From an uncultured Solobacterium sp. (GTDB lineage: Bacteria; Bacillota_I; Bacilli_A; Erysipelotrichales; Erysipelotrichaceae): 13,839 nucleotides of DNA. The translations under genes were made by a program, and so were the position numbers. A model generated the notes under the pieces. It did no database searches and was not told the DNA's origin. It worked only from the letters and a program-made list of their open reading frames with translations. The stretch's first letter is position 1. Each line of letters starts with the position of its first letter. This document shows positions 4,783 to 13,839 of the stretch, in pieces. The stretch is taken from the NCBI GenBank assembly GCA_937895985.1, contig CALBKL010000292.1, positions 1 to 13,839 on the forward strand, in the 5' to 3' direction.

Positions 4783-5157
4783 CTAAAGTGTCCGTACTTT
4801 GTCCCAAATCTGTCTTATTCTTTCTTGATTATTCTCAAGATATAAAGCACCTAAGATTGCCTCAAATCCTGTCGACATACGATATGTCACAACATCTGTA
4901 TTGTTTGGAACACTACCTGTATTACCATTGCGTCCACGGTGATACGTCGCTTCTTCCTCTTCGGTAAAGAAGTTTTCTTCGTGAAGAAGCGAATAGAATC
5001 TTGCTTGTGATTTTGCGGAAACATAAGAAATACTTAACTTTTGTAGCATCTTTCCTTTGCCTTGTCCTTCTTGAACCAAGAAGTCACGTACCGCAAGAGA
5101 CCAAACCGCATCACCAAGAAAGGCTAGTGTTCTACCATTACATTCTAATGGGTTCAT
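4783..5157 (-). CDS. mrnC: Mini-ribonuclease III (23S rRNA maturation)
   Basis: A 124-aa RNase III catalytic domain without any dsRNA-binding domain, the hallmark of Mini-III, which trims 23S rRNA precursor ends in Firmicutes. It has the first catalytic motif LAFLGDAVW (11-19, Asp16) and the second motif STGFEAILGALYL (95-107, Glu99), plus the family's HRGRN segment. The start overlaps the cysS stop by 1 bp (TAATG), so translation is coupled. The order cysS–mrnC–rlmB is conserved in Firmicutes and strengthens the call. Confidence 0.94.
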   Translation of the reverse strand: MNPLECNGRTLAFLGDAVWSLAVRDFLVQEGQGKGKMLQKLSISYVSAKSQARFYSLLHEENFFTEEEEATYHRGRNGNTGSVPNNTDVVTYRMSTGFEAILGALYLENNQERIRQIWDKVRTL

Positions 5158-6762: not shown

Positions 6763-6785
6763 GGTGATTAATCGTCTTCATCACC
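6763..6785 (-). terminator. Weak hairpin at the end of the RNase III-like operon
   Basis: GGTGAT (6763-6768) and ATCACC (6780-6785) form a 6-bp stem with an 11-nt loop that covers the stop codon of the small acidic gene. On the - strand it is followed by ATTTTC. The stem is short and the T tract poor, so termination may be leaky into the T-box region. Confidence 0.35.
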
Positions 6786-6947
6786 CCAAATGGAGTGATA
6801 AAATCCCCAACGATTGAATTCTTCTTCCTCACGTCTAAACTCTGAGTCATCCCAATTAAACACGTATCCTCCTTGCGAAATACTAAATCCATCTCTATCA
6901 ATTTCTTCATACTCACCAGATTCATAATTGAAGCACCACTTACTCAT
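6768..6947 (-). CDS. Small very acidic protein of unknown function, coupled to the RNase III-like gene
   Basis: A 59-aa open frame starting at the ATG at 6947, only 3 nt after the stop of the RNase III-like gene. Its start has a strong ribosome binding site (GGAGGAGAAC about 8 nt upstream) lying in the end of that gene, so coding and coupling are well supported. I do not recognise the family. It has 17 Asp/Glu against 5 Lys/Arg, an EEEE run (40-43), a D/E tail, and four tryptophans (4, 32, 47, 54) with many Tyr/Phe. That makes it aromatic and strongly negative, with no signal or membrane segment. A partner, inhibitor or nucleic-acid mimic for the neighbouring nuclease is possible but is inference only. 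Confidence 0.75.
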   Translation of the reverse strand: MSKWCFNYESGEYEEIDRDGFSISQGGYVFNWDDSEFRREEEEFNRWGFYHSIWGDEDD

Positions 6948-6950
6948 AAC

Positions 6951-8072
6951 TTAGTTCTCCTCCATGTCCAATACATGTTTTAGCATTCCCCATGCGGCAT
7001 CCTTTTTCGCATCCTTTTTAGAGGATGCAGTTGACCAATAATAAATATCCTCTTCGCTTATATGACATTCGCATCTCCAAATGGGGTTCCCATCCTCATC
7101 ATATTCTTCATAAAAATCATATGTCGGAAGAGAAAAATAACCTCTTCTAGCAAGTATCTCAAGTTGATTGACAGCCATTTTCTTACATGGATTCTCAATC
7201 TCATCTTGAATAGTCCACAATAAACCATGTTCATCTAAATACTCATAGGCAAGTCTAGAAGCTTCTTCTCTTGCCATATTTTTGGAATGCCCATAACCAA
7301 TAAACCAACACGGAATATCCTCTAATGCAAGTAAACTTGCATATTTTGTATTTGAATCAAATTCTCCTCTTTTCGAAGAATGCATAAGAGTCCACATTGA
7401 ATTGGGGCTAGCCCAATCCGGAGCCCCTCTGTTTATTTCGTTGGATAAATATTTGCAAACTGAATAATCAGGTAATACATCATATTGTTTTAAAGACCAT
7501 TTTTGAATCATGTCAATATAACTATCTTCATCAGAACCGATTATATCATCGATATCAATGATGTTCTCCACAACTTCCTGAATTGTCTTGATATCCCAGC
7601 TTGTATCAAGTGCTATTGCACCAATGATTGCTTCAAACAAATCTTCTTTTGTTGAATTAGATTGTTCGACATGCTTCTTTCTGTCACCTCTACCCATAAT
7701 TAAGTAGGTCTGTAATTCAAGATCATCGATTGCATCCGCAAGAGTTGATTTCCTCACTATCCTTTTCTTAATCTCTGTTAATTGACCTTCATCCTTATCG
7801 GAGGAGAAAGTACTCTCATAAGTCTCCCATAGATAATAATAGTTAGGATTTTGTTGTTTCTTCTTGTTAAAATAACCAAACTCTTCTCTAAGAATTTTTA
7901 CCGCCACCAAATTTAGTGCCGCATCCCCAATAAACTCTAAGATTTCGTTGTTTTCACCACCGTTTTCCATACTGTAAGAACGACGAGTAAAAGCCTGCTT
8001 TAGTAATTCTTGATTCTTGAATGTATATCCAATTATATTTTGGATAATGTTGATTGTCTCTTGACCAAACAC
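6951..8072 (-). CDS. Atypical RNase III with two predicted C-terminal dsRNA-binding domains
   Basis: 373 aa from a GTG start. The N-terminal RNase III domain (about 1-180) has signature NEILEFIGDAAL with Glu46 and Asp50, and the second motif EDLFEAIIGAIALD with Asp144 and Glu147; all four metal-binding acids are kept. About 17 extra residues (NPNYYYLWETYE region) sit between the motifs. Two dsRBD-like regions follow. The first, about 183-282, is degenerate but ends in GYGHSKNMAREEASRLAYEYL. The second, about 294-368, ends in STASSKKDAKKDAAWGML. Ordinary bacterial RNase III has about 230 aa and one dsRBD. The frame extends to a TTG at 8138, but AGGAGG (8085-8080) with a 7-nt spacer points to GTG 8072, after which the domain begins as in the family. 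Not in the usual rnc–smc–ftsY context, so probably an extra paralogue. Confidence 0.88.
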   Translation of the reverse strand: MFGQETINIIQNIIGYTFKNQELLKQAFTRRSYSMENGGENNEILEFIGDAALNLVAVKILREEFGYFNKKKQQNPNYYYLWETYESTFSSDKDEGQLTEIKKRIVRKSTLADAIDDLELQTYLIMGRGDRKKHVEQSNSTKEDLFEAIIGAIALDTSWDIKTIQEVVENIIDIDDIIGSDEDSYIDMIQKWSLKQYDVLPDYSVCKYLSNEINRGAPDWASPNSMWTLMHSSKRGEFDSNTKYASLLALEDIPCWFIGYGHSKNMAREEASRLAYEYLDEHGLLWTIQDEIENPCKKMAVNQLEILARRGYFSLPTYDFYEEYDEDGNPIWRCECHISEEDIYYWSTASSKKDAKKDAAWGMLKHVLDMEEN

Positions 8073-8110
8073 AAAAAAACCTCCTATCTCTTCCTTTCCA
8101 AAATGATATG

Positions 8111-8261
8111 AAGGTGTAATCATCAATATCTTATACAAAAACTGTAGACCTAATTAGATTAAATTAAACTCATTGTTTTAACGTATTTATATGTATTCAC
8201 TTTCATAAATACAAATAAATGAAATAGAAACAATGTACTCAATTTAAAATCATTACACCTT
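8111..8261 (-). promoter_or_regulatory. Long nested inverted repeat in the 5' leader of the RNase III-like gene
   Basis: Five complementary pairs nest in order: 8111-8120 with 8252-8261 (10 bp, AAGGTGTAAT/ATTACACCTT), 8157-8160 with 8248-8251, 8161-8165 with 8241-8245, 8171-8178 with 8228-8235 (CATTGTTT/AAACAATG), and 8183-8190 with 8205-8212 (GTATTTAT/ATAAATAC). A bulge of about 36 nt remains on the 8121-8156 side. The promoter at 8270-8298 would start the transcript at about 8261-8263, so the mRNA's 5' end itself forms the closing stem. The stem's other arm lies about 25 nt before the ribosome binding site. E. coli RNase III is known to cut a hairpin in its own leader; the same logic here is inference. 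Confidence 0.6.
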
Positions 8262-8269
8262 ACAAACAT

Positions 8270-8298
8270 ATTATATTCCAATCCAAACAAACTATCAA
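8270..8298 (-). promoter_or_regulatory. Sigma-A-type promoter of the RNase III-like operon
   Basis: On the - strand TTGATA (8298-8293), a 17-nt spacer and TATAAT (8275-8270) form a near-consensus promoter with one mismatch. The expected transcription start is at about 8261-8263, giving a leader of about 190 nt before the GTG start. The rest of the gap, up to the gene starting at 8365, is AT-rich, and I see no clear + strand promoter in it. Confidence 0.75.
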
Positions 8299-11776: not shown

Positions 11777-13839
11777 TTAGTTTGCTTCTAATTTAATCGT
11801 TACTTCTGTCGTCTGACCATTCATAACTTCCGCAGAAACTGGTTCTTGCGGTAGTTTATATCCATTTGGAATATCACTAGGTTTGATAATATTTTGAACA
11901 TAGTATGAACCTACATTGAGTTCATATGTCTTAGAACCAGCGCCACTACCATCTGGCTTTTCAAGATTAACCTTAATCTTACCTTTGCTGATAGTATACT
12001 TCATCTTTGCCTTCGTTGGCACACTTTCAGTGTATGCAGGGTTAGATGAGAGTGCTGTAATACTAATCTCATGCTCGGAACCTTCCGCAAATGAGATACC
12101 ATCAATTGTAACGGATGTTCCATCAACATTTGATGCCGCTACTGTTCCATCGATTGAGATATTATACTTATCCGCATTCTCTACTGGTGACCACGCAAAG
12201 TGCCATGCATTCTGCAATCCTGTCGCAGTAATATCTGTTGGTGAGTTGAGCTGTACTGTCTTTGCATTATAGGCAAAGTTGATAGATGTCTTCTCACTTG
12301 TCTTATACTTATCTTCCTTCTTGGAATGTGCCGTGATTGTTACAACGTATGTCTCTCCATCCTTTAAAGATGAGGATGCGATACTATCACTATTCGAAAT
12401 AATATTCTTATGTTCTGTAATTGGATTTGTATTAATTGTTAATTCATAGTAATCCGCATTTTCTACTGGATCCCAAGCGATATTTACATTCGCTGTTGTA
12501 ACTGTGAATGTAATGTTCTTTACTTGTGATAGTTTCTTAGCATCTGTCTTGAACGAATTATCATACTGGTTACTAGAGTTATCACCATAACCATACATCT
12601 TACCAGAACGATTGAACGCAACGAGTGTATCATCGTAGGCTGCGATATACTTCACATCTGTCCAAGTTTCAACAGCTTCCTTTAAATCTTTATCATCTGA
12701 AGCAACACTCACCGTACCATCTTCATGTACACCAACTACATAGTTTTTACCAACTGCAATGGATGAAATCTTTGTCCAACTAGACACATCACTTGTACTG
12801 TTTCCCTTTAGGGATACAGCAGAAACACTGCCATCTTTCTTTAAAACAAGTACTTGTGATTCTCCAACAGCTAACTTCTTTGCATCACTAATAGAACTAA
12901 AGTTTGCAGAGTTACCTGACACCTTCACCTGTCCATTTACAATCGCAAATGTGACATCATCACCAGCGTAGATACTCTCTACATCTGTCCAATCACTAAC
13001 CTGACATGCAAGTTCACTACCTGCACAAAGAACTTTACCATCACTAGTTAGACCAACCGTATGGTCTTTACCCGCCGCGATTGCTTGAATATTTTTCCAC
13101 TTCGCAACTTCCTCATTCTTATCAGTTGTTACGACTGTACCATCTTTCTTAAGACCAACCGCATGACTTCCGTACGCACTAACCTGTACAACATCTTGGA
13201 ATTCATTCTTATACTGGAAATCACCATACACTTCTAAAGCATTATTCTTATTGATAAATAATGTATAGGTATCGCCTTCTGCGATACGGTTTAGTTCAGA
13301 AACTTCTACAGTGAAATTTGACTTTCCACCACCAGTTGTAAAACGTAGGATAATTGCAATAACTGCGATAACCGCAACCAAGCATCCAGCGATAATCGCA
13401 TAAGAGATCTTTTTACGATTCTTTTGATTATCTTGTTTTTTAGGCTGGTTTGTGTCCATAGCCTTTGCGGCCGTCTTAATCTTGCCTGCATCCATTACAC
13501 GTGTACTACCTAAGTCATTCTTAACAGAATTAACTCGTTGTGTATGAATTGTTCCCGTCTGTAATGTTTCATCTAGTTTTTGTTCTGGTTCTGGTTTTGA
13601 CTCTGGTTGTACCGGTGGTACTACCTTTACCTCAGGTAATTCAATTACCTTGCGATTATCAATAAAAGATTCAACCGGAATACCAAACAACATAGATAAC
13701 TTACGAATATTTGATATTGATGGGATACTGTTACCATTTTCCCAATTCATATAATCGGTAAACTTCACATTGATTTTTGTTGCTACATCACCCTGTGAAA
13801 GACCGTAATGCTTTCGAAGAAGTGTTAATTTTTCTGGAA
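11777..13839 (-). CDS. Membrane-tethered XRE-type HTH protein with RCC1-like and FN3-like outer regions (5' end beyond window)
   Basis: The frame stays open to the window edge, so the 5' end is missing; a GTG at 13768 falls inside the HTH and is not the start. Of 686 visible residues, 1-57 are a Cro/C1-type helix-turn-helix (LRKHYGLSQGDVA, then WENGNSIPS). A Pro/Glu-rich and charged linker follows, then one membrane segment at about 144-165. The outer part carries RCC1-like repeats (about 195-415, e.g. HTVGLTSDGKVLCAG and VVGVHEDGTVSV). Two FN3-like units come next (about 440-525 and 535-625), sharing the pattern W-x-PVENAD-x-Y, and then a short beta-rich end. The HTH–TM–outer layout recalls RodZ, but the outer part is different. 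It could be a cell-surface scaffold or a sensor. It is coupled to a GYF_2 gene downstream. Confidence 0.85.
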   Translation of the reverse strand, partial: PEKLTLLRKHYGLSQGDVATKINVKFTDYMNWENGNSIPSISNIRKLSMLFGIPVESFIDNRKVIELPEVKVVPPVQPESKPEPEQKLDETLQTGTIHTQRVNSVKNDLGSTRVMDAGKIKTAAKAMDTNQPKKQDNQKNRKKISYAIIAGCLVAVIAVIAIILRFTTGGGKSNFTVEVSELNRIAEGDTYTLFINKNNALEVYGDFQYKNEFQDVVQVSAYGSHAVGLKKDGTVVTTDKNEEVAKWKNIQAIAAGKDHTVGLTSDGKVLCAGSELACQVSDWTDVESIYAGDDVTFAIVNGQVKVSGNSANFSSISDAKKLAVGESQVLVLKKDGSVSAVSLKGNSTSDVSSWTKISSIAVGKNYVVGVHEDGTVSVASDDKDLKEAVETWTDVKYIAAYDDTLVAFNRSGKMYGYGDNSSNQYDNSFKTDAKKLSQVKNITFTVTTANVNIAWDPVENADYYELTINTNPITEHKNIISNSDSIASSSLKDGETYVVTITAHSKKEDKYKTSEKTSINFAYNAKTVQLNSPTDITATGLQNAWHFAWSPVENADKYNISIDGTVAASNVDGTSVTIDGISFAEGSEHEISITALSSNPAYTESVPTKAKMKYTISKGKIKVNLEKPDGSGAGSKTYELNVGSYYVQNIIKPSDIPNGYKLPQEPVSAEVMNGQTTEVTIKLEAN

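Follow-up and report, generated by a model that had tools for sequence, protein, structure and literature searches.

A probable accessory RNase III with two predicted dsRNA-binding domains, its structured leader RNA and a small acidic open reading frame in gut bacteria

The window, meaning the whole stretch of 13,839 nucleotides of contig CALBKL010000292.1 from an uncultured Solobacterium sp. that was analysed here, carries on its minus strand a gene for an RNase III with two double-stranded RNA-binding domains (dsRBDs), which is preceded by a promoter-like site and a structured leader RNA and followed by a small acidic open reading frame (ORF). A first-pass annotation had drawn attention to the nuclease; the leader RNA and the small ORF go beyond that observation and are the most informative parts of the locus. 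The features are as follows.

8270-8298, minus strand: promoter-like site (TTGATA, 17 nt, TATAAT), found by sequence inspection and conserved in relatives
8107-8264, minus strand: structured leader RNA, matched by the R1 covariance model (73.4 bits, E=1.5e-11)
8252-8261, minus strand: 5' strand of the closing helix P1, AAGGTGTAAT, pairing over 10 bp with 8111-8120
8194-8211, minus strand: apical hairpin P4a with a GNRA loop, GAAA in the window and GCAA in many relatives
8111-8120, minus strand: 3' strand of P1, ATTACACCTT, whose ACCTT doubles as the 5' arm of the terminator-like hairpin
8079-8115, minus strand: terminator-like hairpin, including the Shine-Dalgarno sequence AGGAGG at 8080-8085 (-11.0 kcal/mol folded alone with its tail)
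6951-8072, minus strand: RNase III with two dsRBDs, 373 aa, GTG start
7530-8072, minus strand: RNase III catalytic domain, residues 1-181, from Pfam, AlphaFold2 and structural comparison
7227-7523, minus strand: first dsRBD, residues 184-282 with an insertion at about 208-243, from TIGR02191 coverage, AlphaFold2 topology and relatives
6969-7184, minus strand: second dsRBD, residues 297-368, from PF00035, the alignment of relatives and AlphaFold2
6768-6947, minus strand: small acidic ORF, 59 aa, its ATG three bases after the RNase III stop codon

The start codon of the nuclease gene is the GTG at 8072, with AGGAGG 7 nt upstream. The product is a member of the RNase III superfamily, as both PF14622 (E=2.2e-20, 73.5 bits against a cut-off of 35) and PF00636 (E=4.8e-16, 59.8 bits against a cut-off of 27) exceed their Pfam cut-offs. 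It had been noted at first pass that the catalytic acids of RNase III are all present, and this is borne out by six acidic residues (E43, E46, D50, E95, D144 and E147) that are invariant across 52 aligned relatives and that align, in a pairing read from the alignment by eye, with E38, E41, D45, E65, D114 and E117 of the E. coli enzyme, as numbered in the accessible text of PMC8708148. The top Foldseek match of the predicted model is E. coli RNase III, and the catalytic domain of the model has an extra beta hairpin at residues 66-91, of which 72-82 are predicted at low confidence. TIGR02191, the equivalog model for canonical RNase III, gave 134.8 bits, below the NCBIfam cut-off of 166.25, and aligned residues 91-277 to model positions 58-217 of 219, i.e. 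to the model end. A search of 5.77 billion proteins returned 1914 at E <= 0.001, and the best 120 of these 1914 relatives are mostly 350-400 aa long with the same domains as the window enzyme.

The two C-terminal dsRBDs that had been proposed from the letters alone are upheld, each on its own grounds. The second is matched by PF00035 at residues 307-364 (E=2.8e-7, 31.5 bits against a cut-off of 23), and K352, K356 and K357, which begin its last helix, are invariant in 52 relatives; since the structural comparison hardly covers residues beyond 283, this domain rests on Pfam and the predicted topology. The first has no Pfam match in the window protein, in which PF00035 gives one stretch only, and therefore rests on the TIGR02191 coverage, the predicted topology and the relatives, two dsrm stretches having been found in 5 of the 9 scanned with Pfam. 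Thus a profile search that was to yield the catalytic families and two PF00035 matches gave PF14622, PF00636 and one PF00035, the second PF00035 match being missing, and the structure prediction suggested alongside it gave dsRBD topology in both segments, with helix-strand-strand-strand-helix at 185-281 and again at 297-367. The packing of the domains in this AlphaFold2 model (mean pLDDT 84.5, 52-row alignment) is not fixed, given a pTM of 0.58.

The enzyme shares with bacterial RNase III (rnc, TIGR02191; E. coli 7r97, T. maritima 1o0w) the catalytic domain, its acids and a dsRBD in the usual place. Canonical RNase III has one C-terminal dsRBD, whereas the window enzyme has two, judging by the AlphaFold2 topology and the 5 of 9 relatives, and it adds to this second dsRBD the insertion in the first and the beta hairpin at 66-91. 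It also differs from canonical rnc in its length of about 370 aa, its sparse occurrence, its dedicated leader RNA and its failure to reach the TIGR02191 cut-off. The plant Dicer-like protein DCL3 (7vg2) likewise has an RNase III domain followed by a dsRBD and aligns over model residues 1-373, but the rmsd of 21.6 A over 287 residues means that at most the domain order is alike, and the window enzyme has a single RNase III domain.

It had further been proposed that the enzyme is an additional, specialised dsRNA nuclease with two dsRBDs and not the housekeeping one. Both parts of this proposal gain from the finding of canonical rnc above the NCBIfam cut-off, in frames of 231-250 aa, in 13 of 14 genomes that carry a relative, the fourteenth giving only a partial match in a 149-aa frame; these 14 are carriers of relatives and do not include the window's own genome. 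On the same co-occurrence a diverged housekeeping rnc was rejected, in favour of the view that the window gene probably encodes an extra, accessory RNase III.

Occurrence of the two-dsRBD RNase III in gut bacteria is sporadic, Pseudobutyrivibrio being among the carriers. A sample of 391 genomes, drawn from the class of one carrier, yielded 6 copies at E <= 1e-50 in 5 genomes, at least 3 of which (G008, G011 and G013) had been known as carriers beforehand. A scan of genome contigs with a single protein gave no relative and a scan with an alignment gave 344, of which the best 80 of 344 were kept; the set of 88 copies referred to below consists of 87 loci plus the window and includes near-copies, e.g. 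L081, L084 and L086. Seven loci sit on contigs called viral by IMG/VR. With the relative P0067 as query, none of the 50,697 phage records gave a match at 1e-10 and the 72,556 plasmid records yielded a single distant relative; on this query, named phages and plasmids were rejected as the main carriers. The plasmid relative (Ruminococcus albus mobilizable plasmid pRUMAL01) is annotated as 506 aa, shows 25.7 percent identity and has no match to R1. Another protein, P0052, combines an Era-type-GTPase-like start with the later part of the two-dsRBD enzyme and may be an assembly chimera.

The leader RNA sits between the promoter-like site and the start codon of the nuclease gene. In an alignment of the 300 bases before 73 copies, from which near-duplicates had been removed, the consensus TTGaca / TG.TAtaaT appears at the matching place, with little conservation 5' of it, and conservation continues, with variable stretches, to the start codon. 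The leader consists of the closing helix P1, whose strands in many relatives read AAGGCATAAT and ATTATGCCTT, a long arm P2-P3-P4-P4a with the GNRA loop, and a side hairpin P5 that is poorly kept in the window. The arm is rich in duplex, e.g. 17 continuous pairs in L062. RNAalifold predicted 41 pairs in six helices from 55 leaders, with double-sided changes at 32 of the 41, and P4a cells were 97.2 percent paired over the 55 sequences. Over the whole fold 94.1 percent of 2251 cells were paired, compared with 39.0-48.2 percent when partners were slid by 1-3 columns; the covariation score was 0.416, against at most 0.127 for slid versions, double-sided changes were seen in 217 cells, against 46-64, and 0 of 500 shuffles scored as high on any of five measures, all these figures being tilted in favour of structure because alignment and folding used one set of rows. 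Despite this derivation from the same rows, the double-sided changes go far beyond those of the slid versions. A covarying fold in a 5' leader, a feature of riboswitch and attenuator leaders, is thus present.

The linkage of this RNA to the gene was followed with the R1 covariance model, which was built from 41 rows without the window; 47 of the 88 copies, the window included, lie outside the build, and many of them are near relatives of R1 rows. Sense matches were found upstream of 87 of the 88 copies, including the window, and the remaining copy (L055) gave a partial match only (E=0.0011). Eight of the 87 matches are weak (30-47 bits), though at the expected place, and overlap the score range of antisense echoes of the same places (31-55.5 bits). 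In the 391-genome sample, which was scanned with stricter filters, R1 gave 6 sense matches, one beside each of the 6 enzyme genes in the same 5 genomes, together with 3 weaker antisense echoes at the same places. Of the 18 genomes or records from which loci were taken, 17 also had R1 matches, always next to the enzyme gene, and there was no R1 match at canonical rnc in the 14 carrier genomes. Comparative sequence analysis thus establishes both the leader fold and its linkage to the gene. Rfam 15 at the gathering score, applied to the window and six loci, gave nothing at a leader and one tRNA in L078, and a permissive Rfam search of the L056 leader gave three matches, all on the opposite strand and no better than chance (best E=1.3), so that a known RNA family is rejected for the leaders tested. 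The leader is accordingly a structured RNA with no Rfam match, tied one-to-one to the two-dsRBD subfamily of RNase III. One clade (L038, L055, L057 and L060) has a poorly matching leader (E between 3.3e-6 and 0.0017 for three, and the partial match of L055) and no terminator-like hairpin of score 14; its leader may be decaying or differently built.

The 3' end of the leader runs into a terminator-like hairpin, the 3' arm of which contains the Shine-Dalgarno sequence, with U residues next. In the window a run of seven T at 8073-8079 follows the hairpin, its first T pairing, and the hairpin needs one bulge. A simple scan found hairpins of score >= 14, a threshold of our own choice, in 76 of 88 copies as against 99 of 440 dinucleotide shuffles, with none of that score in 12 of the 88. 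Over 51 distinct cases 91 percent of the pairs were standard in register, compared with 50-71 percent when shifted, and double-sided changes at pairs 5-9 occurred in 14, 8, 22, 8 and 5 of them, in a test where the search itself fixed pairs 1-3, the register was the one that paired best, and 13 of the 88 copies, including the window, were passed over.

The hairpin and P1 draw on the same strand, the P1 3' strand reading AUGCCUU in many relatives and ACACCUU in the window. The bases shared in the window number 3 without the bulge and 5 in the bulged hairpin. Of the 74 copies scored, 53 share >= 4 bases, 14 share 1-3 and 7 share none, a count that leaves out the 12 copies with no hairpin and 2 with too short an upstream stretch, and in which the script picked the wrong P1 stem in some low-overlap copies. 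The single-sequence fold of L046 keeps P1 and the hairpin together, which means that mutual exclusion is not general, and together with the overlap counts this indicates that competition is common rather than general. In L044 and L047 the hairpin and U-run precede a separate Shine-Dalgarno site, an arrangement that points to termination. The window leader folds at -37.0 kcal/mol and the hairpin alone at the value listed above, which is not a like-for-like comparison; since the P1 state prevails in the computation, an off state would need some factor that opens P1. Two competing folds are therefore present in the leader as sequence, and their complementarity suggests that they may act as a switch.

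A homologue of the small ORF lies at the same place in 29 of the 88 copies, the window included, and is missing in the other 59. Differences per site at codon positions 1, 2 and 3 were 0.155, 0.141 and 0.558 (n=27), as in a coding gene under constraint, and on this comparison its coding nature is established. The predicted products are acidic (pI 4.05-4.70, n=27), and AlphaFold2 gave two strands and a long helix with a mean pLDDT of 77.9. No convincing Pfam family was found in 24 members, three of which had single weak matches (best E=0.12), and at least 1362 relatives were found in the protein collection among the 7992 candidates scored; the ORF therefore represents a small-protein family with no Pfam model. 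It was found in 8 of the 14 carrier genomes, each time at the two-dsRBD RNase III gene. The 391 genomes gave 6 matches, 4 of them beside an intact enzyme gene; the fifth lies beside L097, an enzyme copy with residues of about 171-286 unmatched, and the sixth is weak (E=3.1e-4) with no enzyme within the surrounding 3.2 kb. On the enzyme tree (85 rows) presence of the partner required 16 changes, as against 24.4 for shuffled labels, and thus the ORF is clustered, yet has been gained or lost many times. On contig C20 of G008 two copies of the module (L031 and L033) are separated by about 14 kb, and only one of them has the small ORF. The L097 locus (G098) has a shortened RNase III in which the first dsRBD is unmatched, the adjoining small-ORF match has an internal stop, no R1 match was found there, and the enzyme falls below the 1e-50 limit of the 391-genome count; we read it as a degraded or variant module.

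The gene neighbourhood offers a different kind of evidence. As the first-pass annotation had stated, a second gene of the RNase III fold, mrnC, is close by: an mrnC-like gene (PF00636, E=6.6e-24) lies at 4783-5157, 1.8 kb from the two-dsRBD gene, and is flanked in our reading of the ORF list by cysS- and rlmB-like ORFs. The significance attached to it does not hold, for no mrnC-like cluster is among the recurrent neighbours of the 88 copies, the proximity therefore looks incidental and a functional link is rejected. Mini-III, the mrnC product, has the RNase III fold in common with the window enzyme but, unlike it, no dsRBD according to the accessible text of PMC8708148, and shows no sign of belonging to the module. 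The survey of neighbours in other genomes that had been suggested revealed no constant larger partner gene, the widest cluster, of recombinase-like ORFs (Pfam Resolvase/Recombinase for three scanned members), being present at 10 of the 88 copies.

Up to two larger neighbours per side of 64 loci gave 226 proteins. A random draw within size limits took 148 of them, and 145 were scanned after the removal of three that contig ends had truncated. These 145 matched 153 PADLOC families at 1e-10, compared with 11 for 137 control proteins from 18 hand-picked regions on long contigs of 12 carrier genomes, a comparison that counts families and not proteins, so that one protein may match many models, and in which the control is richer in core genes because it was picked from long contigs. 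The neighbours carry Pfam names such as resolvase, AbiEii-type AAA, Fic, HipA, DpnII and Eco47II, and the control families listed are mainly of metabolism and housekeeping. With family counting and a core-rich control, these figures indicate residence in accessory, defence-rich regions and are not proof of defence. The enzyme itself matched 0 families of PADLOC-DB 2.0 up to E=1. Cas3- and Cas5-like genes stand beside L031 in our reading, and Cas3 models match one scanned, unnamed neighbour. Macrodomain-like ORFs were likewise read near the module in L014, L015 and L036; the accessible part of PMC4222554 describes regulation of RNase III by the E. coli macrodomain protein YmdB.

The explanation that is preferred, with a confidence that falls a little short of even, is that of an accessory dsRNA nuclease under the control of the leader that precedes its gene, probably with autoregulation and a role in defence. 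The module would comprise the promoter, the folded leader RNA, the two-dsRBD RNase III and, in about one third of copies, the small acidic protein. In the on state P1 would be closed and its CCUU strand held by the 5' end of the RNA, leaving the Shine-Dalgarno sequence largely open in most copies; in the off state P1 would be open and the CCUU strand would pair with the Shine-Dalgarno sequence in the hairpin, followed by the U residues, acting by termination or by blocked translation. The trigger would most likely be the enzyme itself, which by binding or cutting the P2-P4a arm would break P1 and lower its own expression. This autoregulatory step is a guess, made because a duplex-rich arm could be bound or cut by RNase III. 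Foreign dsRNA that occupied the enzyme would then spare the leader and allow more enzyme to be made, so that the module would meter dsRNA. Its task would be to degrade dsRNA that comes from phages or other mobile elements, while the acidic protein might temper or deliver the enzyme. A defensive role would fit the sparse occurrence (5 of 391 genomes) and the PADLOC-rich neighbourhood. Against this explanation, the leader is more conserved in sequence than a simple RNase III site needs. The copies in which the hairpin shares few or no bases with P1, the 12 copies that have no hairpin of score 14, the dependence of the off state on a factor that opens P1, the failure of the enzyme to match PADLOC and of P0067 to match phage records, the want of a constant neighbour and the 59 copies that lack the small ORF also count against it. 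A gene for RNase III with a leader of its own is also found in E. coli, where the rnc leader is cut by the enzyme that it precedes. RNase III autoregulation is mentioned in the accessible text of the review PMC8708148. Unlike the E. coli rnc leader, the present one has several covarying helices and a hairpin in which the Shine-Dalgarno sequence is included; the comparison with rnc leaders was made on canonical rnc of the 14 carrier genomes and not on E. coli rnc itself.

Related but unlikely is a more specific proposal of RNA-gated immunity, in which the leader would be a sensor and a Dicer-like enzyme would be kept low until dsRNA from phages, plasmids or bacterial dsRNA viruses, e.g. the proposed prokaryotic picobirnaviruses, titrates it off the leader, with the acidic protein as a nucleic-acid-mimicking brake. 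Picobirnaviruses are dsRNA viruses common in gut contents and are argued, in the accessible part of PMC7855169, to infect prokaryotes; that they or other dsRNA viruses are the target of the module is speculation. A multi-helix fold with a platform overlapping P1 is the usual anatomy of a riboswitch, and this fold, the conserved GNRA loop and joining segments, and the platform that overlaps P1 in many copies would all suit a classical one, in which P1-P5 would bind a small molecule, nucleotide or ion reporting infection or stress and the enzyme would not act on the leader. Riboswitch classes often precede several genes of one pathway, yet this leader was found at only one gene in 391 genomes, and the gene suggests no ligand; such ligand binding seems improbable, as does the corresponding role of the competing hairpin as an expression platform.

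The leader might instead act in trans, either inhibiting the enzyme or serving as its RNA cofactor, in the manner of ToxI for ToxN. The order of promoter, RNA, short terminator hairpin and endoribonuclease is that of ToxIN as described in the accessible text of PMC8860590, the 5' and 3' ends of the leader pair as in a free-standing RNA, and the setting is sparse and defence-like. However, the nuclease is of the RNase III type, tandem repeats are absent from the leaders of the window and of L004 while that of L062 has only a 10-nt repeat in 2.6 copies, on which a repeat-type antitoxin is rejected for these three leaders, and the overlap of the hairpin with P1 and the Shine-Dalgarno sequence in many copies favours control in cis; action in trans is accordingly given a small likelihood. 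Finally, the enzyme could have nothing to do with defence and be an ordinary second RNase III that works in the processing of rRNA, plasmids or mRNA and whose leader is autoregulated. Its catalytic residues are intact, its fold is near that of the housekeeping RNase III, and the accessible text of PMC8708148 describes a cyanobacterium in which one of the three RNase III enzymes takes part in the control of plasmid copy number; such a role is made quite unlikely by the restriction to 5 of the 391 genomes sampled from one class, by the many PADLOC-type genes nearby and by the canonical rnc already present in 13 of 14 genomes.

No report of the module was found in the open literature at the level of titles and the starts of abstracts, and RNase III is not mentioned in the main text of the motif papers PMC11109978, PMC8632094 and PMC2864571. 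Should the leader respond to the enzyme or to dsRNA, as the preferred reading of a self-controlled dsRNA nuclease would have it, the module would provide a simple test for dsRNA-triggered defence in bacteria, with a logic comparable to that of Dicer. The window itself seems to begin with an artefact, its first 42 bases (1-42) being what we take to be a transposase sequencing adapter. Towards its other end, the protein encoded at 11777-13768 has RCC1 repeats and an fn3 domain, as well as a weak helix-turn-helix match close to its N-terminus.
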